From contig MOEB01000018.1 in assembly GCA_001939945.1 (NCBI GenBank), forward strand, positions 1 through 64,000: DNA of 64,000 nucleotides, in the 5' to 3' direction. Position 1 is the stretch's first letter, and each line of letters opens with the position of its first letter. This document shows, in pieces, positions 6,451 to 54,196 of this stretch. Source of the stretch: Aerophototrophica crusticola. GTDB lineage: Bacteria > Pseudomonadota > Alphaproteobacteria > Azospirillales > Azospirillaceae. The position numbers and the translations under genes are program-made. The notes beneath the pieces were generated by a model. That model worked only from the letters and a program-made list of their open reading frames with translations, was not told where the DNA came from and did no database searches.

Positions 6451-6479
6451 TTCTTCGTGTCCCTCAAACGCCGGCGCCG

Positions 6480-6578
6480 CATCCGCGGCTTGGCTTACGC
6501 GCCCCCTCCAACATAAATGGTGGGGCGCGCGGCGGCGGTCGCCGCCGGAGCGTGTTCACGCTTTGCGCGAACACGCTC
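6480..6578. repeat. Cluster of intergenic hairpins between convergent genes
   Basis: Between rsmC (+) and the DUF2442 gene (-) lie three GC-rich inverted repeats: a GCGCCCC/GGGGCGC pair around 6499-6530, GGCGGCGGTCGCCGCC around 6531-6546, and a perfect pair GAGCGTGTTC / GAACACGCTC (6548-6578) abutting the DUF2442 stop codon. No T-run follows on either strand. They may act as a bidirectional barrier or be a dispersed repeat. Confidence 0.5.
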
Positions 6579-6988
6579 TAACCAGCGGCTTTCCTTGGCC
6601 GCCCGCCCTTGCGCCCGTTGGCCTGGGCGGCGGCGGTCTTGGCGGGGGAGCGGGCCTTGCCGCCGGCGGCCCCCAGCCGGGCCGCCATCCAGCGCTGGGA
6701 GCCGAAGACGCCCTGCATCAGGGCCGGCACATACAGGTCCGCATCCAGCCGCGGCCAATGCAGGCCCAGGCCGGACGGGCTGACCTCGATCTCCGCCAAG
6801 TCCTCCGGGGCCGCACCGGCCAGCCCCTCGGCAAGGTCGGTGGGGAAGGCAAGCTCGACCCCGGTGCTGAGCTTCAGCACGACGCGGGAGCCGCGGCGCA
6901 CATAGCGGGCGGCCACCACATGCCCACCCTGCCGCGCCTCCCCCATCCGCTGTTCAGCGGCGCGCTGTTCCTGGTCAGTAGGGTCCAT
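6578..6988 (-). CDS. DUF2442 domain protein, possible antitoxin
   Basis: This is a 136-residue protein. The DUF2442-like core (about 22-80) has 'VAARYVRRGSRVVLKLSTGVE' followed by 'LHWPRLDADLYVPALMQG'. A basic Ala/Lys/Arg-rich tail (about 100-136, ending 'NGRKGGRPRKAAG') looks suited to DNA binding. DUF2442 proteins are often found beside DUF4160 proteins, an arrangement proposed as a toxin-antitoxin module, and that is the case here: the upstream DUF4160 gene overlaps it by 14 nt. The antitoxin role is an inference from the pairing. Confidence 0.75.
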   Translation of the reverse strand: MDPTDQEQRAAEQRMGEARQGGHVVAARYVRRGSRVVLKLSTGVELAFPTDLAEGLAGAAPEDLAEIEVSPSGLGLHWPRLDADLYVPALMQGVFGSQRWMAARLGAAGGKARSPAKTAAAQANGRKGGRPRKAAG

Positions 6989-33389: not shown

Positions 33390-33868
33390 GCGGGGGTCCG
33401 GTTGAACGACCCCGCCTTGTTACAAGGCCATGGCGGCGGGTTCAACGGGGGAGGAAGCTTTTGCGGAGGAGGGCGGGGCGGAAGGATTTGGACACGGATG
33501 AAAGGGATGATTGCCGGATGGGCACGGATGGGGTTGGGGATGGGGATTGTGCCTAGATGGGTGTGGTGAGGCATTTGGACATTCACGGACACGCACCAAG
33601 CATTCACGAACACGCACAAAACAAGATAGCCTGCGGCGCTGTTTGCGCGGCGAAGCCGCAGTCATTTTTCGTGTATGTTCGTGCGTGGATGGTGCTTGTT
33701 CGTGAATGTTTCCGGCTCACCCGCCCAGTAAACCAAGAGCGCCAGAACCGGCCGCCCCATCAGGCCATTATCCCTGTACATCCGGCCTTGATCCGGGTTC
33801 ATCCGTGCCCGAGTCCTTCCGCAACGCCGCCGTCTGTCAGAGCCACACCGCCACGCCGAAAGGCTGCG
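33390..33868. repeat. Large nested palindromic element, copy A, in a 479-nt intergenic region
   Basis: No gene is present. Outer inverted arms (about 33480-33526 and 33774-33820) are built of CACGGATG/CCGGATG words and match at roughly three of four positions. Inner arms (about 33577-33626 and 33666-33712) are built of CATTCACGAACACGCAC words. The apex has a perfect CTGCGGC (33631-33637) / GCCGCAG (33655-33661) stem. The same architecture recurs at 43.5 kb. It lies between the end of the DUF58 operon and the start of cca, both on the minus strand. Confidence 0.75.
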
Positions 33869-43534: not shown

Positions 43535-43863
43535 TGGAAGTTTTAGGACACGGATGTACGCGGATGCCTCAATGGCCCTGGGGATCGGGTGCCGCGGACA
43601 TGCACAACAGTTCTTGGATATGGGTGCCGGAAACATTCACGGACACGCACTTTGCACACACGAACATTCACAAGAGAATAAATGCGGCCTCGCCGCAACT
43701 CGGTAGCGCCGCAGGCATTGTCCTTCTTGTTTTTGTGTGTGTTCGTGCGTGTGTGGTGTGTGTTCGTGAATGTTTACTGTATCTCGGCGAGACACGCAGG
43801 CCCGGACACTCCATCCGCGCAAATCCGGACATGATCCGTGTCCATCCGTGTCCTGGTCCTTCC
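43535..43863. repeat. Large nested palindromic element, copy B
   Basis: Outer arms (about 43537-43576 and 43812-43863) carry GGAAG-n-AGGACACGGATG words in inverted orientation. Inner arms (about 43629-43675 and 43725-43778) carry AAACATTCACG, CACACACGAACA and TCTTGT words that pair over roughly 45 bp. The apex has TGCGGC-CTC-GCCGCA. Architecture and arm words match copy A at 33.5 kb, although the sequences are not identical. It lies just upstream of ccmA (minus strand). Confidence 0.75.
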
Positions 43864-44389: not shown

Positions 44390-44672
44390 GACGCAACGCG
44401 TACCCCCCGACCGTCCCTTAAACAAGGCGGCGTATTGGAGGCTACGATGGTTGATGTTGTTGTCGGTGGGCCCGCCGCGCCCGCCCGATTCCGATCCATC
44501 CGGCGGGACCTGACGGGGCGCATGTCCCCTCCTGGGAAATCCAGTATCTGACCCGCTTAGGCTTGCCGCATCCCTGGCTCCCCTGAGCGGACCCGGACCC
44601 CTTTTGGGTCCGGTTGCTGGTGCTTTCCCCCATCGCCCCTGTTTCCACCGACTTGCCGCCTCGGAGTCCCCG
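44390..44672 (+). promoter_or_regulatory. 5' leader of the ornithine decarboxylase gene (speF-motif position)
   Basis: An unusually long leader precedes the decarboxylase start. It holds a possible leader peptide (44447-44551) with GGAGG 5 nt upstream, and then a hairpin CCGGACCC (44594-44601) / GGGTCCGG (44607-44614). The 'speF' RNA motif is known upstream of ornithine decarboxylase genes in alphaproteobacteria, so position and layout fit. I cannot align it to the Rfam model from memory, so the assignment is an inference. Confidence 0.5.
44447..44551 (+). CDS. Possible 34-residue leader peptide upstream of ornithine decarboxylase
   Basis: The small ORF starts with ATG at 44447 with GGAGG at 44437-44441, which is better than the site of many large genes in the window. 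Its product (MVDVVVGG, then 'RFRSIRRDLTGRM') is short and basic in the middle. In E. coli a 34-residue leader peptide, SpeFL, controls speF by ornithine-dependent ribosome stalling. Whether this alphaproteobacterial ORF is translated or related is unknown. Confidence 0.4.
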   Translation: MVDVVVGGPAAPARFRSIRRDLTGRMSPPGKSSI

Positions 44673-45803
44673 ATGACCGAGAAGATCGCCCGTTTCTTCC
44701 GCGATAACGCCCCCGCCACGCCCTGCCTGGTGGTCGACCTGGACGTGGTCGCCGAGAATTATGCCAAGCTGAACGGCGCCCTGCCGGACTCCAAGATCTA
44801 CTACGCGGTGAAGGCCAACCCCGCGCCGGAGATCCTCAGCCTGCTGGTCTCCATGGGCTCCAGCTTCGACACCGCCTCGGTGCAGGAGATCCAGTATTGC
44901 CTGGAGGCCGGCGCCACGCCGGACCGCATCAGCTTCGGCAACACGATCAAGAAGGCGTCGGACATCCGCACCGCCCACGGGCTGGGCGTGGACCTGTTCG
45001 CCTTCGACAGCATCGAGGAGCTGGAGAAGATCGCCGCCAACGCCCCGGGCGCCCGGGTGTTCTGCCGCATCCTGACCTCTGGTGAGGGCGCGGACTGGCC
45101 CCTGTCCCGCAAGTTCGGCTGCGAGCCCGCCATGGCGCGGGAGCTGCTGCTGAAGGCGGCGGCCATGGACGTGGTGCCCTATGGCCTGTCCTTCCATGTG
45201 GGCAGCCAGCAGCGCGACGTGGGCCAGTGGGACCTGGCGCTGGCCACCTGCGCCGCCCTGTTCAGGGACCTGGAGGAGCAGGGCGTGGTGCTGCGCATGG
45301 TCAATTTGGGCGGCGGCTTCCCCACCCGCTACCTGAAGGACGTGCCCACCAGCCAGCAGTATGGCGAGGCGATCAACGAGAGCCTGCGCCAGCATTTCGG
45401 CAACCGCATCCCGGAGACGATCATCGAGCCGGGCCGCGGCATGGTGGGCAACGCCGGCGTCATCCAGTCCGAGGTGGTGCTGATCTCCCGCAAGTCGGCC
45501 AACGACGACCGCCGCTGGGTCTACCTGGACATCGGCAAGTTCGGCGGCCTGGCGGAGACCATGGATGAGGCGATCAAGTACCCCATCGTCACCGACCGTG
45601 ACGGGGATTCGGCCGAGCCGGTGATCATCGCCGGCCCGACCTGCGACAGCGCCGACGTGCTGTATGAGAAGGCGGACTACCGGCTGCCCAGCAGCCTGGC
45701 CATCGGCGACCGGGTTTCCATCCTGGCCACCGGTGCCTACACCACCACCTACTCGGCGGTGAACTTCAACGGCTTCGCCCCGCTGAAGGCTTATTACATC
45801 TGA
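44673..45803 (+). CDS. Ornithine decarboxylase, group IV PLP-dependent
   Basis: This is a 376-residue fold-III PLP decarboxylase: PLP lysine Lys47 in 'YYAVKANP', 'FHVGSQQ' and 'NLGGGFPT' for phosphate binding, 'EPGRGMVGNAG', and the catalytic Cys324 in 'GPTCDSADV' supplied in trans to the partner active site. The substrate-specificity helix and length fit ornithine (or ornithine/lysine) decarboxylases that make putrescine, rather than diaminopimelate decarboxylases. CGGAG lies 7 nt before the ATG. A long structured leader precedes it, and a hairpin-string element plus terminator follow. Confidence 0.92.
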   Translation: MTEKIARFFRDNAPATPCLVVDLDVVAENYAKLNGALPDSKIYYAVKANPAPEILSLLVSMGSSFDTASVQEIQYCLEAGATPDRISFGNTIKKASDIRTAHGLGVDLFAFDSIEELEKIAANAPGARVFCRILTSGEGADWPLSRKFGCEPAMARELLLKAAAMDVVPYGLSFHVGSQQRDVGQWDLALATCAALFRDLEEQGVVLRMVNLGGGFPTRYLKDVPTSQQYGEAINESLRQHFGNRIPETIIEPGRGMVGNAGVIQSEVVLISRKSANDDRRWVYLDIGKFGGLAETMDEAIKYPIVTDRDGDSAEPVIIAGPTCDSADVLYEKADYRLPSSLAIGDRVSILATGAYTTTYSAVNFNGFAPLKAYYI

Positions 45804-45810
45804 CGCGTTG
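45804..45810. other. Junction between decarboxylase stop codon and hairpin-string element
   Basis: Only seven bases separate the TGA from the first hairpin, so the element would be the 3' untranslated region of the decarboxylase mRNA. Confidence 0.5.
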
Positions 45811-45944
45811 GCCGTTGATCGTGACCGATTAACGGCCCCCTCAGGCGCCGGGCGGGCGCATCCGCGCCCTTGGCTCACGCGACCACGAGGTCGCGGGCCG
45901 GCAGTCGCCGGCCTCCAGCGGCATGAGATGTCTCATGCCGCTGG
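45811..45944 (+). repeat. Five-hairpin element, copy 1
   Basis: It is a string of five stem-loops: H1 GCCGTTGATCG with CGATTAACGGC (45811-45835), H2 GGGCGC-ATCC-GCGCCC (45854-45869), H3 CGCGACC-ACGA-GGTCGCG (45878-45895), H4 GGCCGGC-AGTC-GCCGGCC (45896-45913) and H5 CCAGCGGCATGAGA with TCTCATGCCGCTGG (45915-45944). About 105 bp (45811-45915) is nearly identical to the inverted copy after cysK. H3 and H5 differ by paired, compensatory changes. Coding potential is absent. Confidence 0.85.
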
Positions 45945-45966
45945 TATGGCACCCGCCGACGGCCAT

Positions 45967-46002
45967 CAGGCCCGCCCCCACGACCGGGGGCGGGCCTTTT
46001 TG
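45967..46002 (+). terminator. Rho-independent terminator after the ornithine decarboxylase
   Basis: The stem AGGCCCGCCCCC (45968-45979) pairs with GGGGGCGGGCCT (45986-45997), with TTTTTG at the 3' end on the plus strand. It is the strongest canonical plus-strand terminator in the window. Confidence 0.92.
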
Positions 46003-46238
46003 TTGCGCCTGCAAAGTGTCACAGATGCTGCCGAATTGGCGGGCAGTTGCGTATTTTTTCTGCAACACAGTTGGTCAAAGGACACGCATTGGCCTTCGGG
46101 TGCCCTTGCCAGGGCCACTGAAATCCTTCTTAGTTCGCGTCGGAGAAGCGCCCCCACCGCAGGTGGCATCCCTTTTGCTGCACTGCGCCAGGATAAGAAC
46201 ATCACGCACCCAAGCCTCATAATAAGGAGCGGTCCAAA
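46003..46238. other. Upstream region of the TorF porin gene
   Basis: These 236 nt are AT-richer than average (for example around 46041-46080) and probably hold the porin promoter. AAGGAG at 46224-46229 is a good ribosome binding site for the ATG at 46239. I see no gene. Confidence 0.45.
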
Positions 46239-46943
46239 ATGACCCTGTCCCGGTTGCTCGCTTCCGCCGCCGCTGGCGCGATCCTGTTCGCCGGCGCCGC
46301 CCAGGCCGAACCCATCACCTTCTCCGGCACCGTCGCCGGCACCACGGACTACGTGTTCCGCGGCATCAGCCAGACGGACGAAGATCCCGCCATCCAGGCC
46401 GGCATCACCGTGAGCCATGAGAGCGGCTTCTTCGTGGGCGCCTGGGGCTCCAACGTGGATGATGACTTCATCCCCGGCTCCAACGTGGAACTCGACCTGC
46501 TGGCCGGCTACAGCAACGAGGTCGGCGACCTCGCCTACAGCTTCATCGGCACCTGGTACACCTACCCGGGCCAGGACGACGGCATCGAGGCCAACTACTT
46601 CGAGCTGGGCTTCACCCCGTCCTATACCATCGACAAGGTCAAGCTGACCGGCCAGGTCTGGTGGAGCCCGGAGTACGCCGGCACCGCGGGCGGCAACAGC
46701 TGGTACTTCAACGGCGGCGCCGCCCTGGCCGCCACCGACGACATCAGCCTGTACGCCAACGTCGGCTACTCCACCTTCGAGGAACTGCCGGACTACTGGG
46801 ACTGGCAGGTCGGCGTCGCCTACACCTGGGAGAGCCTGACCTTCGACGTGAAGTACACCGACACGAACGAGAAGTTTGTTGGTCCCAGCGGGAGAGTCAT
46901 CTCGGATGAGCGCGTCGTCGGCACGGTGACCTTCGCGTTCTGA
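46239..46943 (+). CDS. TorF-family putative outer-membrane porin
   Basis: This 234-residue precursor has a signal peptide (1-23, cut after 'AAQA'). The mature part is all beta, beginning 'ITFSGTVAGTTDYVFRGISQ', the family hallmark (TIGR02001). Alternating aromatic strands and a C-terminal 'VVGTVTFAF' ending in Phe are typical of barrel proteins. It should form an outer-membrane channel of unknown specificity. It is flanked by terminators on both sides and so is monocistronic. Confidence 0.92.
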   Translation: MTLSRLLASAAAGAILFAGAAQAEPITFSGTVAGTTDYVFRGISQTDEDPAIQAGITVSHESGFFVGAWGSNVDDDFIPGSNVELDLLAGYSNEVGDLAYSFIGTWYTYPGQDDGIEANYFELGFTPSYTIDKVKLTGQVWWSPEYAGTAGGNSWYFNGGAALAATDDISLYANVGYSTFEELPDYWDWQVGVAYTWESLTFDVKYTDTNEKFVGPSGRVISDERVVGTVTFAF

Positions 46944-46952
46944 TCCGGGTGC

Positions 46953-47005
46953 CAGCGTCAGGTCCATGGCGGCCGGTCCCTTCGCGGGGCCGGCCGCTGA
47001 CGCTT
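46953..47005. terminator. Bidirectional terminator hairpin between TorF and patatin genes
   Basis: A two-step perfect stem: outer AGCGTCAG (46954-46961) with CTGACGCT (46997-47004), inner GCGGCCGG (46969-46976) with CCGGCCGC (46990-46997). It lies between two convergent stop codons. T-runs are short, so efficiency is uncertain. Confidence 0.7.
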
Positions 47006-48058
47006 TCAGAAATAGTCGTTCACGATGTCGATGCTGGTGCGCTGGCCAACGTCGTCGAAATGCCTGGCCAGCCAATCCTGCCCGGCGCGGCGGCCGAGGG
47101 TGAACAGGTGCTCCAGGAAATCCGGCTCCGCGTTCAGCTTGCTGGAGGCGTGCAGGTCCGCCAGCTCCTTGTCGCCGGACACGCGGTGCATCAGCACGTG
47201 CTTGTACTCGCGGGCGTCCAGCCGCCCCGTCTCGATCAGGCGGGTGACGAACTGCACGGCCCGCATCTCCCGCATCAGGCTGGAGTTGAAGGTGATCTCG
47301 TTGACCCGGTCCATGATCTCGAACGGGGTCATGGGCACGCCCGGCCGGTTCAGCGGGTTGATGGCCACCAGCACCACGTCCCGGCTTCCGCTCTCATAGA
47401 ACAGGGGCCACAGGGCCGGGTTGCCCATATAGCCGCCGTCCCAGTAATGCCGCCCCTGGTACTTCACCGCCTGGAAAAGCTGGGGCAGGCAGGCCGACGC
47501 CAGCACCGCCTCCACGCAGACCTCCGGCGTGCGGAACAGCCGGTTCTTGCCCGTCTCCACGTCGGTGGCCGACAGGAACAGCCGGATGCCGCCGTCCCGG
47601 CGCACGGCATCGAAATCCACCACGTCCTTCAGCAGCCCGCGCAGGGGGTTCAGGCCATAGGGGTTGGTCTGGTAGGGGGACAGGAACAGGTTGCCGATGC
47701 TGGCCAGGGCATAGCTCGGCGTATCGTCGATGCGCCACTTGCCCGTCAGCCGGGACCACCAGCTCCGCCGGAAGGGGGAGGTACGGCCCAGGGCGCCCAG
47801 CCGGCGCCAGAACTCCGCCAGGTCGGCGCGGGCCCCCTCCGCCCCACCCCGGGCATAGCCGGAAGCCAGGACCACCGCGTTCATCGCCCCGGCGCTGGTG
47901 CCGCTGATCGCCTCCGGCTCGATCCGGCCGTCCTCCAGCAGGGCATCCAGCACACCCCAACTGAACGCCCCGTGGGAGCCGCCGCCCTGCAGGGCCAGGT
48001 TGACGCGCTTGCGCGGATGGTCCTCGGGACGGGGGTCGTGGGGCAGGGGCTGGGTCAT
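47006..48058 (-). CDS. Patatin-like phospholipase family protein
   Basis: The 350-residue protein has all patatin catalytic elements: oxyanion 'LQGGGSHGAFSWG' (23-35), nucleophile Ser55 in 'GTSAGAMNA' and the DGG motif 'YWDGGYMGNP' (about 214). It hydrolyses acyl esters of lipids. No signal peptide is evident, so it is probably cytoplasmic or membrane-associated. It is divergent from the flagellar-rod-like gene at 48181 with 122 nt between them, which contain the CCTATCCC octamer (48147-48154). Confidence 0.93.
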   Translation of the reverse strand: MTQPLPHDPRPEDHPRKRVNLALQGGGSHGAFSWGVLDALLEDGRIEPEAISGTSAGAMNAVVLASGYARGGAEGARADLAEFWRRLGALGRTSPFRRSWWSRLTGKWRIDDTPSYALASIGNLFLSPYQTNPYGLNPLRGLLKDVVDFDAVRRDGGIRLFLSATDVETGKNRLFRTPEVCVEAVLASACLPQLFQAVKYQGRHYWDGGYMGNPALWPLFYESGSRDVVLVAINPLNRPGVPMTPFEIMDRVNEITFNSSLMREMRAVQFVTRLIETGRLDAREYKHVLMHRVSGDKELADLHASSKLNAEPDFLEHLFTLGRRAGQDWLARHFDDVGQRTSIDIVNDYF

Positions 48059-48180
48059 GTCGCCATGGGGGTGGTGGGCGGGCGTGCCATCCTAGCATCC
48101 CCCGGCACCGCACGGTTGCATATCACGGGCTTGCCCTGGGATGGGACCTATCCCATAGTTCGGGGCAAGGGAGATCGTCC

Positions 48181-48588
48181 ATGGGACCTGCCGCCTCCAT
48201 ATCCCTCTCCGGCGCTTTCGCGGCCGGCAACCGCCTGGGCATCTCGGCCCAGAACGTCGCCAATGCGCGCAGTATCGGCGCGCGGCCGGGGGTGGAGGGG
48301 CAGCTCCCCTACCAGCCGCAGGCCCCGGCCCAGCAGGCCGTCGCCGGGCCGGACGGGCAGGGGCTGGGCACCCGGGTGGTGGCCCGGCCGGTGACGCCGC
48401 CCTTCCTGGCGGAATTCCAGCCGGACTCCCCCTCCGCCGATGCCGAAGGGCTGGTCGCCGCCCCCAACGTGGACCTGGCCGGGGAGCGGGTGGAACAGCT
48501 CGGCTCCCTGCGTTCCTACCAGGCCAACCTGGCGGTGCTGCGCGCCCAGGGGAAGATGGAGCGTGAGGCCATGGACATCCTGGCCTGA
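48181..48588 (+). CDS. Small flagellar rod/hook-like (FlgC-type) protein
   Basis: The 135-residue protein looks like a flagellar rod protein. The N-terminus 'GAFAAGNRLGISAQNVANA' matches the 'LxAxxxRLxVxANNxANA' helix. The C-terminus 'VEQLGSLRSYQANLAVLRAQ' followed by 'KMEREAMDILA' matches the second coiled-coil helix. A Pro/Gln/Ala-rich middle separates them. No other flagellar gene lies within the window, so it is an orphan rod-like protein. It may serve the flagellum, or be a domesticated relative. Confidence 0.75.
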   Translation: MGPAASISLSGAFAAGNRLGISAQNVANARSIGARPGVEGQLPYQPQAPAQQAVAGPDGQGLGTRVVARPVTPPFLAEFQPDSPSADAEGLVAAPNVDLAGERVEQLGSLRSYQANLAVLRAQGKMEREAMDILA

Positions 48589-48626
48589 CACGCTCCCCGT
48601 AAGCCTTTCCGACAGATGGTGAAGGA

Positions 48627-48706
48627 CCCCGGCCCGGGCGCGGTCGCCGGGCCGGGGACAAGTGCGGGCCAGCTCCGGCGGCATGGGCCACTGTCCATGC
48701 CGCCGG
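48627..48706. terminator. Two hairpins between convergent genes
   Basis: CCCCGGCCC (48627-48635) pairs with GGGCCGGGG (48649-48657), and CCGGCGGCATGG (48675-48686) pairs with CCATGCCGCCGG (48695-48706). One probably serves the rod-like gene and the other the PEP-CTERM gene. T-runs are lacking. Confidence 0.55.
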
Positions 48707-48715
48707 CCACAGGCA

Positions 48716-49465
48716 TCAGGCAGCCTTGCGGCGGCGGCGCAGGGCGCCGGCGGCCAGCAGGCCCGCGCCCAGCAGGCCGAGGGTGGCCGGCTCGGGCACC
48801 TGGGCCAGGACGACGCCGTCGATGCCGAAGCCGTCGTTCCCGGCGGTCTGGGTGAAGGTGATGCTCAGCAGCTCATAGGTGGCGCCCAGGCCGAAACCGA
48901 CGAAGAAGTTGGTGCCGCTGTCCAGCGACCCGCCCTTGCCGGACACGCCCAGCGGCATGTCGATGGTCTGGCCCGTGGCCTTGACCTTCAGCTTGGCCGA
49001 CACGTCGTTCACGTCGGTCAGGTAGAAGCCCACATGGGTGAAGCCCTTGCCGCCGGCCGCGGCGTCCCAGGTCACGGTCTTGTAGTCGTTGCTGTCCAGC
49101 CAGTTGGCGCCGCCGACCATGTCGTAGCGGCCGCCGAAGTTCTTCGGGCGGGTGGCGGCGTTCAGCACGCGCAGGCCGGACACGCCGGTGTTCTGCCCGG
49201 CGGTGGTGCCGGTGAAGGTGCCGACCTTGGTGTTGATGCTGTTGGCGTTGCTGCCGGGGGTGTAGGTCTCGAAATCCTCCATGGAGATGGTCTGGAGGCC
49301 CAGCAGCTTCAGGTAATCGGCGCCCTTGGCAAGGGTGGAAGCCTTATTCGCCTCGGTGGTCGGGGGGCTGACATAGATGTCCACCAGCCCGATGGCGGCG
49401 GCGGGGGCGGACAGGGCCGTGCTGAAGGCCAGCGCGCCGGCCAGGGTGAGCAGGGTCTTCTTCAT
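48716..49465 (-). CDS. Secreted PEP-CTERM sorting-domain protein
   Basis: This 249-residue precursor has a signal peptide (1-26, 'MKKTLLTLAGALAFSTALS') and a beta-rich extracellular body with many Asn/Thr/Gly. Its C-terminal sorting signal is 'VPEPATLGLLGAGLLAAGAL' followed by an Arg/Lys cluster. Such signals are processed by an exosortase, and the proteins often go to the exopolysaccharide matrix. No exosortase gene is in this window. GGAGG before the ATG at 49465 supports that start. Confidence 0.9.
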   Translation of the reverse strand: MKKTLLTLAGALAFSTALSAPAAAIGLVDIYVSPPTTEANKASTLAKGADYLKLLGLQTISMEDFETYTPGSNANSINTKVGTFTGTTAGQNTGVSGLRVLNAATRPKNFGGRYDMVGGANWLDSNDYKTVTWDAAAGGKGFTHVGFYLTDVNDVSAKLKVKATGQTIDMPLGVSGKGGSLDSGTNFFVGFGLGATYELLSITFTQTAGNDGFGIDGVVLAQVPEPATLGLLGAGLLAAGALRRRRKAA

Positions 49466-49689
49466 TGTTTCCTCCAACGGGACGGGGTGTCCGGACCCCT
49501 TGTTTCCAAGAAGCGTGCCAAGTCATCTGAGTCCTGCAAGATCAATGGCTTGGTTGCATGCCGCCGCCGCCATGGCCGGGGCTTGTAAGAAATCCCGACA
49601 CGTCCCTACGCCATCCGCGGCTTGCGCTTCCGCCGCGATGGGTTTATCCAGGGTTTCACAAGCCAGAACCGTTTTTTGGGGCCTCTCCC

Positions 49690-50943
49690 ATGGCCGAATC
49701 CCCTGTCCCCACCGCGCTTGCGGGCAAGCGGGTCCTGCTGGTCGTGTCCGGCGGGATCGCCGCCTACAAGACGCCGGAGCTGGTCCGCCGCCTGCGGGAG
49801 CGGGGCGTGGCCGTGCGCTGCGTGCTGACCAAGGGCGGGGCCCAGTTCGTCACCCCCCTGGCCCTCCAGGCGGTCAGCGAGGAGAAGGTCTATACGGAGC
49901 TGTGGTCCCTGACCGACGAGTCGGAGATGGGCCACATCCAGCTTTCCCGCCAGGCGGACGTGCTGCTGGTGGCCCCGGCCAGCGCCAACATCCTGGCCCG
50001 CATGGCCCATGGGATGGCCGACGATCTGGCCAGCACGGTGCTGCTGGCCACGGACAAGCCGGTGCTGGTCGCCCCTGCCATGAACGTGCGCATGTGGGAC
50101 CACCCGGCCACCCGGGCGAACCTGGACCTGCTGAAGGCCCGCGGCGTGGGCGTGATCGGCCCCAACGAGGGGGCCATGGCCTGCGGGGAATACGGCTTCG
50201 GCCGGATGAGCGAGCCGCTGGAGATCGTCGCCGCCCTGGCCGACTTCTTCGCCAGCCGGGACGGGCCGAAGCCCCTGGCCGGCCGCCACGCCCTGGTCAC
50301 GTCCGGCCCGACGCATGAACCCATCGACCCCGTGCGCTACATCGCCAACCGGTCCAGCGGCAAGCAGGGCCACGCCGTGGCGGCGGCCCTGGCCGATTTG
50401 GGCGCCCGCGTCACACTCGTCTCCGGCCCCGTCACCCTGCCCGACCCGGCTGGTGTCAGGGTGGTGAAGGTGGAAACGGCGCGGCAGATGCTGGACGCCT
50501 GCGCCGCGGCGCTCCCCGCCGACATCTTCGTCGCCGCCGCCGCGGTGGCCGACTGGCGCGTGGCGGCAGAGGCCGGTCAGAAGCTGAAGAAGGACGGCTC
50601 CGGCCCGCCCACCCTGGTGATGGCGGAGAACCCGGACATCCTGGCCAGCCTCAGCATTCCGGGACCGCAACGACCTGGGCTGGTGGTCGGTTTCGCTGCC
50701 GAAACAAACGACGTGCTGGCGTATGCGAGGGCCAAGCTGGCCCGCAAGGGTTGTGACTGGATCGTCGCCAACGACGTGTCGCCGGCCACCGGCACCTTCG
50801 GCGGTGACCGCAACAGCGTCCACCTGATCCGCTTACACGGGGACCCCCAATCCTGGCCCGACCTGCCGAAGGCGGAGGTGGGCCGCCGCCTTGCCGCCGC
50901 CATCGCCGACCATTTCGCTTCTGGAAAGAGTGCCGATGCCTGA
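49690..50943 (+). CDS. coaBC: Bifunctional CoaBC (4'-phosphopantothenoylcysteine synthase/decarboxylase)
   Basis: The 417-residue bifunctional enzyme makes 4'-phosphopantetheine for coenzyme A. The N-terminal CoaC flavoprotein (about 1-195) has '[17 protein letters not shown]', '[21 protein letters not shown]', 'PAMNVRMW' and the catalytic Cys in '[10 protein letters not shown]'. The C-terminal CoaB synthetase (about 200-410) has '[20 protein letters not shown]' and 'GFAAET'. Its last 8 nt overlap dut, an arrangement common across proteobacteria. Confidence 0.96.
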
Positions 50944-51394
50944 CGTGACCATCGCCGTCCGCCGTCTGCCCCATGCCGACGGCCTGCCCCTGCCGGCCTA
51001 TGCCACCGACCACGCCGCGGGGATGGACCTGCTGGCCGCGGTGGCCGAGCCGCTGGAGATCGCGCCGGGTGCCCGCGCCCTGGTGCCCACCGGCCTGGCC
51101 ATCGCCCTGCCAGTGGGCTACGAGGCCCAGGTGCGGCCCCGCTCCGGCCTGGCCCTGAAGCATGGCGTCACCGTCCTGAACAGCCCCGGCACGGTGGATG
51201 CCGACTATCGGGGGGAGGTGGGCGTGATCCTGGCGAACCTGGGCGCCGAACCCTTCCGCATCGAGCGCGGCATGCGCATCGCCCAGATGGTCATCGCCCG
51301 GCATGAGCGGGCGGTGTGGGCCGAGACGGACAGCTTGACGGAGACCGCCCGCGGCAGCGGCGGCTTCGGCTCCACCGGCACGGGGGCCCGCTGA
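50936..51394 (+). CDS. dut: dUTP diphosphatase
   Basis: The 152-residue trimeric dUTPase has all five motifs: 'DHAAGMDL', '[12 protein letters not shown]', '[13 protein letters not shown]', 'MRIAQMV' and the C-terminal 'GSGGFGSTG'. It hydrolyses dUTP to dUMP, keeping uracil out of DNA and feeding thymidylate synthesis. It overlaps coaBC by 8 nt. One base separates it from the Rrf2-type regulator, so the regulator is probably read from the same transcript. Confidence 0.97.
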
Positions 51395-51395
51395 C

Positions 51396-51851
51396 ATGCT
51401 GCGCATCTCCAAGAAGCTGATGTTCGCCATCGAGACGGTGCTGGACATCGCCTACAACGCCGGCTCGGCACCCGTGCAGTCGGCGGAGATCACCGCCCGC
51501 CAGGGCATCCCCAAGCGCTACCTGGAACAGGTGCTGCAGGCCCTGGTGCGGGCCGGGGTGCTGGCGGGGGTGCGGGGTCCGAAGGGCGGCTACCGCTTGG
51601 CCAAGGAACGCCGCCGCATCACGCTGGGGGAGATCGTTCGGGTGGTGCGTGCCCTGGAACAGGCCACCGACCCCATCGAGGAGGAGGTCGGCGCCGAGCT
51701 GGGCCGCCGCGTCGTCCGCCCCCTCTGGGCCGAATTGCAGGAAGACGTGATGGCAAGGCTTGACCGCACCACCATCGAGGAGCTGTGCGTCCGCGCCAAC
51801 CAGGCCGGCATCGCCAGCGAGGCGGCGAGCAAGCTGGATTTCAGTATTTAG
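51396..51851 (+). CDS. Rrf2-family transcriptional regulator
   Basis: The 151-residue protein has the Rrf2 winged helix: 'LMFAIETVLDIAYNAG' and 'ARQGIPKRYLEQVLQALVRAGVL', then 'GPKGGYRLAKERRRITL' as wing. The three cysteines that bind Fe-S in IscR are absent; a single Cys lies near the C-terminus ('EELCVRA'). It is therefore more like CymR-type sensors. Since cysK follows, sensing of sulfur or cysteine status is a reasonable guess. It is one base after dut. Confidence 0.88.
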   Translation: MLRISKKLMFAIETVLDIAYNAGSAPVQSAEITARQGIPKRYLEQVLQALVRAGVLAGVRGPKGGYRLAKERRRITLGEIVRVVRALEQATDPIEEEVGAELGRRVVRPLWAELQEDVMARLDRTTIEELCVRANQAGIASEAASKLDFSI

Positions 51852-51888
51852 TGTTCCTGGATGCATGCTCCGGCTTTGTTTTTTTCTG

Positions 51889-51980
51889 TCTCCCCTGCGA
51901 AAGCAGGGGCCCACAGTTCTTTACTGACGGAGATTGTGGGACCGGGATCAAAAACCGTGGGCTCCTGCTTTCGCAGGAGA
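51889..51980. repeat. Inverted repeat of CTGCGAAAGCAGG type
   Basis: Each arm is itself a hairpin (CCCTGC-GAAA-GCAGGG at 51893-51909 and CCTGC-TTTC-GCAGG at 51964-51977), and the two arms (51889-51914 and 51957-51980) pair over about 24 bp. CCCACA/TGTGGG (51911-51916 and 51935-51940) nests inside. Similar repeats are common in alphaproteobacterial intergenic DNA. It lies between the Rrf2 gene and the cysK promoter. Confidence 0.8.
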
Positions 51981-52062
51981 AGCGATAGGGACTCGCAAGC
52001 CGGGCAACCTGCCGCTCCTAGGAAACCATCCCCGATCCCATTCGCCGCCCCCGGATTCCCCC

Positions 52063-52138
52063 TGGCACGGCACGTCCGGCGGGAGTATATACAGAACGAT
52101 ACGGGGCTTTCCCCGAAATACCAATTCGGAGACGTACA
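52063..52138 (+). promoter_or_regulatory. Predicted cysK promoter and operator region
   Basis: TGGCAC (52063-52068) and TATATA (52086-52091), 17 bp apart, form a plausible promoter. Downstream are two short inverted repeats, CGGGG-CTTT-CCCCG and CCGAA/TTCGG, which could bind the neighbouring Rrf2 regulator. CGGAG precedes the ATG at 52139. Confidence 0.5.
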
Positions 52139-53101
52139 ATGTCTGCCACGCCCGAGTTCCGCGGTCGCATCTATGACAGCATCCTGGACACGGTCGGCGC
52201 CACGCCGCTGGTGCGGATGAAGCGGCTGGCCGAGCGCCACGGGGTGGTGGCCGACGTGGTCGGCAAGTGCGAGTTCTTCAATCCGCTGTCCAGCGTGAAG
52301 GACCGCATCGGCAAGGCCATGGTGGAGGCCGCCGAGGCCGAGGGCAAGATCAGCCCGGAGACCACCACCCTGGTGGAGCCCACGTCCGGCAACACCGGCA
52401 TCGCGCTGGCCTTCGTGGCCGCGGCCAAGGGCTACAAGCTGATCCTGACCATGCCGGAGAGCATGAGCCTGGAGCGGCGCAAGATGCTGAAGCTACTGGG
52501 GGCGGAGCTGGTGCTGACCCCCGCCCCGAACGGCATGAAGGGCGCCATCGCCAAGGCGGAGGAGATCGTCGCCAACACGCCGGGCGCCTATATGCTCCAG
52601 CAGTTCAAGAACGCCGCCAACCCTGCCGTGCACCGCGCCAGCACGGCGGAGGAGATCTGGAACGACACGGACGGCAAGGTGGATGCCCTCGTCTCCGGCG
52701 TCGGCACCGGCGGCACCCTGACCGGCGTGGCCCAGGTGATCAAGCAGCGCAAGCCCAGCTTCCGCGTGGTGGCGGTGGAGCCGGAGGACAGCCCCGTCCT
52801 GTCCGGCGGCCTGCCGGGCCCCCACAAGATTCAGGGCATCGGCGCCGGCTTCGTGCCGGACATCCTGGCCCGCGACCAGATCGATGAGGTGCTGCGCATC
52901 TCCAACCACCGCGCCTTCGAGCTGGCGCGGGAAGCCGCGCGGTTGGAGGGCCTCGCCATCGGCATCTCCGGCGGCGCCGCCCTGGCCGCCGCCTTCGAGC
53001 TGGGCGCCCGGCCCGACATGGCCGGCAAGCTGATCGTCACCATCCTGCCCAGCTTCGCCGAGCGCTACCTGTCCACCGCCCTGTTCGAGGGGTTGGAGTA
53101 A
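52139..53101 (+). CDS. cysK: Cysteine synthase A
   Basis: This is a 320-residue PLP-dependent O-acetylserine sulfhydrylase: Lys54 in '[11 protein letters not shown]' binds PLP, '[10 protein letters not shown]' binds the substrate, and '[11 protein letters not shown]' binds the PLP phosphate. It makes cysteine from O-acetylserine and sulfide, the endpoint of the sulfate assimilation fed by cysTWA elsewhere in the window. Length and motifs fit CysK rather than cystathionine beta-synthase. The five-hairpin element begins 3 nt after its stop codon. Confidence 0.96.
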
Positions 53102-53103
53102 TT

Positions 53104-53240
53104 CCAAGCGCATGAGTTGTTGACTCATGCGCTTGGAGGCCGGCGACTGCCGGCCCGCCCGCCCATGCGGGCGTAAGCCAAGGGCGCGGATGCGCCCGCC
53201 CGGCGCCTGAGGGAGCCGTTGATCGGTCACGATCAACGGC
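53104..53240 (-). repeat. Five-hairpin element, copy 2 (inverted orientation)
   Basis: On the plus strand the order is H5 first: CCAAGCGCATGAG with CTCATGCGCTTGG (53104-53136), then H4 GGCCGGC-GACT-GCCGGCC, H3 CGCCCGC-CCAT-GCGGGCG (53156-53173), H2 GGGCGC-GGAT-GCGCCC, and H1 ending at 53240. It is the reverse complement of copy 1 at 45.8 kb. H1 is perfectly paired here, where copy 1 has a G-T pair. Confidence 0.85.
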
Positions 53241-53344
53241 GGCCAGTATAAGCATCATGGCGGCGGCGGGCCGGGGCCTTGTGTGCCCTGGCCCGCCGCC
53301 CCACCCGGCCCCGTGCGCGTTGCCGGTACCAATGCCTGGGCCGG

Positions 53345-54196
53345 TCAGCCCTGCTCGAAATCCAACCCGATGTCGAAGTTCTTCACGCTGTGGGTCAGCC
53401 AGCCCAGGGAGATCAGGTCCACGCCCGTCTCGGCGATGGCGCGGATCGTCTCCGGCGTCACGCCGCCGCTGGCCTCCGTCACCATGCGGCCGGCCACCAT
53501 CTCCACCGCCTTCCTCAGGGTGGGCGGGTCCATGTTGTCCAGCAGCACGGCATCCACCTTCAGGGCCAGCAGCTCCGCCAGCTGGTCCAGCGTGTCCACC
53601 TCCACCTCCACCTTCACCATGTGGCCGGCGCGGGTGCGGGCGTTGGTGACCGCGGCACGCACACCCCCGGCGGCGACCAGGTGGTTGTCCTTGATCAGCA
53701 CCGCGTCATCCAGCCCATAGCGGTGGTTGCCGCCGCCGCCGACCCGCACCGCGTACTTCTCCAGCGCGCGCAGGCCGGGCGTGGTCTTGCGGGTGCAGAC
53801 GATGGTGGCGCGGGTGCCCTCGATCCGGTCCACCAGGGAACGGGTCTCCGTCGCGATGCCGCACAGCCGCCCCAGCAGGTTCAGCGCCACCCGCTCCCCC
53901 GACAGGATGGGCCGTGCCGCACCCTGCACCACGGCGATGGTGTCGCCGGGGTTGACGCGGCTGCCGTCCGGCGCCTTCACGGTGATGGACAGGGACGGGT
54001 CCAGCAGGCGGAAGGCGCTGAGCGCCGGCTCGATCCCCGCCACCACCCCCGCCTTGCGCGCCCGGAACAGGGCCGTGGCCCTGGCATCCGCCGGGACGCA
54101 CGCCTCCGTCGTCAGGTCCCCGGCAAGGCCGAGGTCCTCCTTCAACGCGGCACGGACCAGGTCTTCGTAAAGCAGGGGGTAGAGGGAGGCGGTCAT
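53345..54196 (-). CDS. nadC: Nicotinate-nucleotide pyrophosphorylase (carboxylating)
   Basis: The 283-residue quinolinate phosphoribosyltransferase makes nicotinate mononucleotide from quinolinate and PRPP. Landmarks are '[18 protein letters not shown]', '[17 protein letters not shown]', '[17 protein letters not shown]' and '[20 protein letters not shown]'. It is the third gene of nadABC, 186 nt after nadB; that gap contains a palindromic repeat. Length is normal and the active-site Arg/Lys/His residues are present. Confidence 0.96.

Follow-up and report, generated by a model that had tools for sequence, protein, structure and literature searches.

Two strings of hairpins, inverted relative to each other, lie directly behind the stop codons of two genes in a 64,000-nucleotide stretch of the Aerophototrophica crusticola genome (assembly GCA_001939945.1, contig MOEB01000018.1, positions 1 to 64,000; the window). 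Their stems differ at paired positions, which an earlier note on this DNA took as a sign of selection on a folded nucleic acid, naming a 3'-UTR stabiliser, a family of small RNAs and a mobile hairpin element as candidates. Which of these describes the repeat, and how do the arms of a stem change in sequence and stay complementary? The element is very probably a non-autonomous, MITE-like transposon of about 146 bp, mobilised in trans into TNA triplets and stop codons, with stem changes that arise at the DNA level.

Anatomy of the repeats in the window

The full unit, called type A, has TACCA...TGGTA ends which enclose five hairpins (H1 to H5), and is flanked by a 3-bp TNA duplication. Copy 1 (45804–45946, forward strand, 143 nt) is complete, with a 5' end degenerated by replacement of TACC by CGCG and a 3' end reading ...CTGGTA. 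It abuts the TGA stop codon (45801–45803, forward strand) of a lysA-like decarboxylase gene (44604–45803; best family match lysA TIGR01048, 175.9 bits, under the cut-off of 297.9), and this codon is its 5' target triplet. The TGG at 45947–45949 of the same strand probably is a decayed 3' duplicate of the triplet, as judged from the sequence. All five hairpins of copy 1 are given on the forward strand. H1 (45810–45837) is GGCCGTTGATCG-TGAC-CGATTAACGGCC, in both the sequence and the consensus fold. H2 (45847–45874) is made of an outer and an inner part (GCCGG + GGGCGC-ATCC-GCGCCC + TTGGC), and the G.T pairs of the outer part are almost invariant. H3 (45878–45895) is CGCGACC-ACGA-GGTCGCG, and differs among copies, 99.6% of the aligned cells being paired. 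H4 (45896–45913) is GGCCGGC-AGTC-GCCGGCC, and H5 (45915–45944), as read from the sequence, CCAGCGGCATGAG-ATGT-CTCATGCCGCTGG.

Copy 2 (53102–53248, reverse strand, 147 nt) is also complete, and inverted with respect to copy 1. It abuts, with no gap, the TAA stop codon (53099–53101, forward strand) of cysK (52139–53101; TIGR01139, 429.7 bits, above cut-off), which is its target triplet; a second TAA follows at 53249–53251, so that the triplets read TTA/TTA on the strand of the unit. The five stems reported for each copy are present in both, by sequence reading and consensus fold. The differences described between them also hold: the H3 arms read CGCGACC/GGTCGCG in copy 1, as against CGCCCGC/GCGGGCG in copy 2; the changes in H5 fall at compensated positions; and the G.T pair of H1 at 45817/45830 in copy 1 is G-C in copy 2. 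Other statements needed adjustment. About 105 bp had been called nearly identical between the twins; an inverted pair (45811–45927 and 53124–53240) was found mechanically, yet it measures 117 nt at 88% complementarity, and the wording is slightly strong. Each copy does terminate with its own H5, but copy 1 extends two nucleotides (TA) past this hairpin and starts directly behind the stop codon. Similarly, both copies had been placed near the stop codons of amino-acid metabolism genes; the stop codons adjoin the units, but what matters is the codon, and the metabolic role of the genes is incidental.

A third copy of the H2-H4 core is found at 6458–6547 (forward strand), 7 nt past a TAG stop codon. 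It has a long H3 and the H4 of a second type of unit, type B (CGGCGGC-GGTC-GCCGCCG); its H5 (6548–6580, forward strand) ends with the type-B terminus ...GCTCTA. The window hosts other repeats as well. A second repeat consists of two stretches, at 33579–33716 and 43626–43775, with inverted repeats in which ACATTCACGRACACGCAC...GTTCGTGAATGTTT is abundant. Both form long, imperfect palindromes whose centres are GC-rich. An inverted repeat with 31 nt arms, 87% complementary and 28 nt apart, is located at 51891–51980.

Copies, types and the H2-H4 core

The search for further genomic copies, proposed in the earlier note, was carried out with a covariance model of the core (R1) built from 29 copies. 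At least 149 core matches, not two, were found in the genome at E <= 0.01, and the number is a floor because 150 of 22,329 candidates were scored. BLAST of the unit against the whole genome gave at least 50 matches (40 of 243 first-look candidates scored). Units like those in the window number about 31 to 39: 31 H1 ends with up to 3 mismatches, 39 units by a looser rule among the loci examined. Identical units occur at unrelated loci, for example L020 and L021. The 64 cores on the large contig of genome G005 are distributed on both strands (29 plus, 35 minus), with no clear switch of strand bias between replichores (24 runs, 32.7 expected, z = -2.2).

All 10 genomes searched within the genus have at least 14 core matches each, and a core match is present in 20 of 40 genomes searched. 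A wider search, covering own genome, genus and family with stricter filters, gave matches in 47 of 82 genomes, belonging to 6 of 13 genera. At least 96 stretches were found by pattern scan of named genomes, and the matches listed include Niveispirillum, Azospirillum, Oleisolibacter, Novispirillum, Telmatospirillum, Magnetospirillum, Rhodovarius, Terasakiella and metagenome-assembled genomes of Acetobacteraceae. Matches in Opitutia (L138) and Planctomycetia (L155) do not feature CCTCA before the core, and look like chance.

Three contexts were recognised among the 110 copies from the same genome printed with their flanks. Type A, to which copies 1 and 2 belong, features a 5' TACCA, an H1 with GTTGATCG-TGAC-CGATCAAC, the core, H5 and TGGTA. 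Type B is distinguished by a CGGCGGC-type H4 and by the ends TAGA(C/G)C...GCTCTA; by eye, it is a unit flanked by TA. Type C, made of the H2-H4 core with no recognisable ends, accounts for 45 of the 91 intergenic copies by a simple motif rule. A H5-like hairpin lies 3' of the core in 77 of the 110 copies, compared to 6 of 550 shuffled sequences, and varies widely, 52 different ten-mers marking the start of these 77 hairpins over all types. The core linkers vary little: in 54 type-C copies, the 8 columns of CGCCGGGC and the 7 of CTTGGCT each show one base in at least 95% of sequences, a conservation which is partly ascertainment because the copies were found with the core model.

Copies in Azospirillum sp. 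RU38E have the same type-A ends and TNA triplets, but H1 and H5 arms of other sequence. Tandem core arrays have a 108-bp period in RU38E and a 110-bp period in Telmatospirillum. The arrays are head to tail (L089 in RU38E, L199 in Telmatospirillum siberiense), and spacers are almost constant within the former. A further high-copy repeat family (AGAGCCG...CGGCTCTAAGTCC...CTCTAAAG) is found in many places in RU38E and Niveispirillum sp. SYP-B3756 (genomes G002 and G009), including L148 (about 1700–2000) and L337; at L148, it hosts a nested unit. Type-A units with altered interiors were also noted (L302, L303, L306, L307, L308); L302 is an 86-bp deletion form, and other forms carry an extra GC-rich hairpin (GGCTCGGGGGCCGGGGC) 5' of H2. 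A MITE by itself does not account for a core that occurs with two kinds of termini, on its own, as arrays, and in further genera with no visible ends.

Insertion into TNA triplets and stop codons

The triplets that flank type-A units were compared in 34 scanned copies. They are identical in 18; when the pairing of triplets was shuffled, the mean was 4.6 and the maximum 12, and none of 2000 shuffles reached 18. TNA is found on both sides in 21 of the 34. The 16 copies with non-identical triplets, 10 of which differ at one base, include a false match (L262, one of the 10) and a mis-bounded outer unit (L234). Nesting was seen for two units: one sits within H3 of another copy (L108), one interrupts its host copy at CCCTCA|GGCGCC, flanked by the triplets TCA/TCG (L234).

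Empty sites were sought by searching the joined flanks of nine RU38E copies in six genomes (RU38E and five relatives). SYP-B3756 aligns across the join of two of them, over 182 nt at 90% (L146) and, at a TGA, over 154 nt at 83% (L225). The copy L148 lies in another repeat, and the vacant repeat copy L337 is uninterrupted, reading CTCTAAG, hence TAA, at the position of the unit. The TGA stop codon occupied by L141 in RU38E carries, in SYP-B3756, another core-bearing insert that is oriented the other way, as read by eye. This insert (L335, contig C7 of G009) may have hit the shared target independently. The remaining five of the nine showed no clean empty site. The sites of the window copies were inspected in relatives in which the printed sequence covers the gap, a count that leaves aside loci printed from the other strand, where the gap is not displayed. 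The site of copy 1 is vacant in 5 of 5 (L111, L112, L113, L117, L118), that of copy 2 in 6 of 6 (L124, L126, L127, L128, L130, L133).

Terminal inverted repeats (TACCA.../...TGGTA, with decay), a target duplication of fixed length, supported by triplet test and empty sites, short size and high copy number are hallmarks of MITEs, and all are found in this family. A unit of this length is too short to hold a transposase. Because of the empty sites in a close relative, the nested units and the vacant orthologous sites, the unit is regarded as mobile, and the third proposal of the earlier note, a mobile hairpin element, is borne out by these data together with the terminal repeats and TNA duplications. 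A transposase acting in trans would insert the unit into TNA, duplicating the triplet as observed.

Read on one strand or the other, any TNA is a stop codon (TAA or TGA, or their complements TTA and TCA). The ends of 39 scanned units have 27 predicted gene ends within 25 nt; at 16 of these, stop codon and target triplet coincide exactly. Copy 1 is not among the 39 because of its degenerate 5' end. Duplication of TNA at a stop codon restores the codon; hence, an insertion exactly at this place would leave the protein whole. Surviving copies would thus gather at gene 3' ends, where they are indeed located.

Of 110 copies, 14 were counted within called ORFs, where errors of the caller are possible, and 5 had no called neighbour. 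The remaining 91, intergenic and with both neighbours called, lie between convergent (37), tandem (49) or divergent (5) genes; the 57 gene pairs of the window are 11 convergent, 35 tandem and 11 divergent. Convergent genes flank 28 of 46 copies of types A and B, against 9 of 45 of type C. Enrichment in the former and its absence in the latter are expected, because of the targeting of stop codons and of purging at promoters. Gene contexts come from a simple codon-usage gene caller, compared with RefSeq annotation at one place: a core in NZ_CP025614 lies between two annotated coding sequences, the model match starting at 84171, the first coding sequence ending at 84168. Copies in tandem pairs do not favour the sense orientation (19 sense, 30 antisense, p = 0.15). 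Type-C copies in tandem pairs are antisense in 22 cases and sense in 11, and several are found just 5' of a called gene start.

TNA is the target of IS1031-type elements of the IS5 family. The genus was scanned for transposases with PF13586 only, a search that covers the IS5-type domain. None of the 26 IS5-type DDE loci scanned, corresponding to 25 distinct places, features exact TACCA/TGGTA ends with equal triplets. A TACCA/TGGTA pair with one mismatch (L361) lies outside the better terminal repeats of its own locus, and looks like chance. The one PF01609 gene in the A. crusticola genome has, by eye, different ends, GG(T/C)CTGTGGACATTC.

Bacterial MITEs include elements of the Correia/NEMIS, RUP and Nezha types. 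They are short, folded, mostly intergenic sequences of high copy number, with terminal inverted repeats and a target duplication of fixed length, as the repeats described here. The latter differ in the TNA target coinciding with stop codons, in having five separate hairpins, in the interior core being found also in units with other ends and in end-less copies, and in that no parent IS was found among the IS5-type loci scanned. The bcr1 repeats of the Bacillus cereus group, which according to a title cited in PMC2267715 exhibit "mobile element characteristics", are similar in being dispersed sequences of about 150 bp, folded, mobile-looking and restricted to one bacterial group. Their host group is different, the end-less core described here crosses genera, and the likeness is one of description. 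No description of this family was found among the open-access papers listed for Azospirillum/Niveispirillum repeats and MITEs.

Stem pairing and alternative readings

Pairing was analysed in 98 distinct aligned copies from the A. crusticola genome, in which 98.8% of the cells hold a standard pair. Both residues are changed in 260 cells; 500 shuffles gave 71.9 +/- 5.8, and sliding the partners by 1 to 3 columns gave 50 at most. One-sided changes are found in 10 cells, unpaired residues in 28. The compensatory changes seen in the two window copies are thus real, and far above the shuffled and slid controls. Their reading as a mark of selection is nevertheless unsafe, because template switching from arm to arm, or block conversion between copies, yields the same pattern.

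Stem rewriting was followed at orthologous occupied sites, where both flanks were matched, then aligned. In L156, L165 and L283, whose flanks are 91–95% identical, two H3 pairs are swapped at both sides, while in H2 one pair is compensated and another mismatched. A single compensated H4 pair distinguishes L219 from L285, and likewise L228 from L065; H5 changes are partly compensated in L127/L132. Three changes found in L221/L296 hit one arm only, and are unrepaired. The core persists at such orthologous positions; the flanks of one such pair, L158/L282, are only about 74% identical. According to PMC8794818, template switching produces multibase compensatory mutations, and can fix stem pairing. 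Hairpins maintained in this way resemble the present ones, where changes are multibase and compensatory and one-sided intermediates few, but that paper treats RNA genes, and here the mechanism would act on a DNA repeat. Each arm may be kept the exact complement of the other by template switching within the palindrome during replication; alternatively, whole hairpins could be converted from other copies. Either process would give the observed pattern.

Base composition of the pairs bears on the nature of the folded molecule. In 256 distinct copies (own and relatives), excluding the outer H2, 6356 pairs, or 97%, are Watson-Crick, 45 G.T, 97 A.C and 74 other; the pair detector treats G.T and A.C alike. 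A folded RNA made from the displayed strand would be expected to hold far more G.U than A.C. Read on the other strand, G.T and A.C are 97 and 45, a weak excess that lies mostly in H5 and involves only 1.5% of pairs. As G.T is rarer than A.C and Watson-Crick pairing near perfect, perfect DNA palindromes fit the data better than selection on RNA. The exception is the outer H2, where copies from the A. crusticola genome have 192 G.T and 2 A.C pairs. These would suit an RNA made from the displayed strand, and are the single feature to do so; the GG/TT sites involved are almost invariant, and may reflect conserved sequence more than conserved pairs.

The features that count against a simple MITE are the lack of a matching transposase among the IS5-type loci, the unequal triplets of 16 of 34 copies, the degenerate 5' end of copy 1, the outer-H2 G.T pairs, and the finding of the core without these ends and in other genera. 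The H2-H4 core is a module wider than the type-A unit, associated also with other ends, found alone and arrayed in tandem. A stronger proposal is that the core is an end-less element in its own right in several Rhodospirillales, taken up by at least two transposon families (TACCA/TNA and TAGA/TA), with linkers kept and stems repeatedly rewritten as exact complements, even at one site between species, and that it serves as a DNA-folding site maintained by the host or moves as a separate unit. This is a tentative view, with the odds against it.

Less likely still is that the repeats are a cluster of palindromes like BIMEs, spread by transposition, with linkers under host selection, where the core would bind a nucleoid protein or gyrase, or stop convergent transcription. 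The near-uniform type-C linkers, next to a diverse H5, are consistent with such a site, as is the persistence of the core at orthologous loci with diverged flanks (L158/L282). The linkers were however partly ascertained by the core model itself, and conversion between copies could likewise keep them alike. The rarity of divergent pairs (5 of 91, against 11 of 57) and abundance of convergent ones (37 of 91, against 11 of 57) also fit such a site, but the convergent excess comes from types A and B, and not from the end-less type C. We know of no protein that binds the core.

A structured RNA, either a 3'-UTR stabiliser or a dispersed family of small RNAs with stems under selection in the transcript, is improbable. 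It would account for the strong covariation, the position next to gene 3' ends, the outer-H2 G.T pairs and the conserved linkers of type C. Type-C copies in tandem pairs lean to antisense, the strand on which the H5 excess of A.C would read as G.U. G.U pairs, which are normally tolerated as intermediates, hardly occur outside the outer H2 on the displayed strand (45 of 6572, fewer than A.C), and copies are not biased to sense; moreover, presence or absence accompanied by target duplication is the mark of transposition. Rfam models gave nothing above the gathering score at 45700–53400 and, at 13 further loci, one tRNA only. The two RNA proposals of the earlier note hence find little support. 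At E up to 1, five sub-threshold Rfam matches were seen. The nearest to threshold, isrA at 46929–47054 (31.4 bits, gathering score 51) and the Betaproteobacteria toxic small RNA at 45929–46003 (23.2 bits, gathering score 50), were taken as chance.

REPs are 20–40 bp palindromes, most of which are tagged by GTAG or CGTC at one end (PMC3733652), and the family shares with BIMEs, REPs and REPINs the mosaic of palindromes in high copy number close to gene 3' ends and the variable modules, yet mobilisation by a RAYT (Y1 HUH) transposase can practically be discarded, as Y1 domains (PF01797) gave no match in the genome, in a search positive in 5 of 14 control genomes, and the unit, unlike REPs as described there, carries inverted repeats at its ends and is flanked by a duplicated target.

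The repeats are a genuine MITE-like family with a target compatible with stop codons, and the wider distribution of the core is the point of interest. A transposon that targets a triplet reading as a stop codon on one strand can enter gene ends at no cost, which offers a simple reason for dispersed repeats that abut stop codons. The family supplies a repeat library for the annotation of Azospirillaceae genomes. Its hundreds of hairpins, with near-perfect but changing stems and conserved linkers, are also a dataset on whether compensatory change is due to selection, template switching or conversion, and the origin of such change bears on the use of covariation as evidence of RNA structure.
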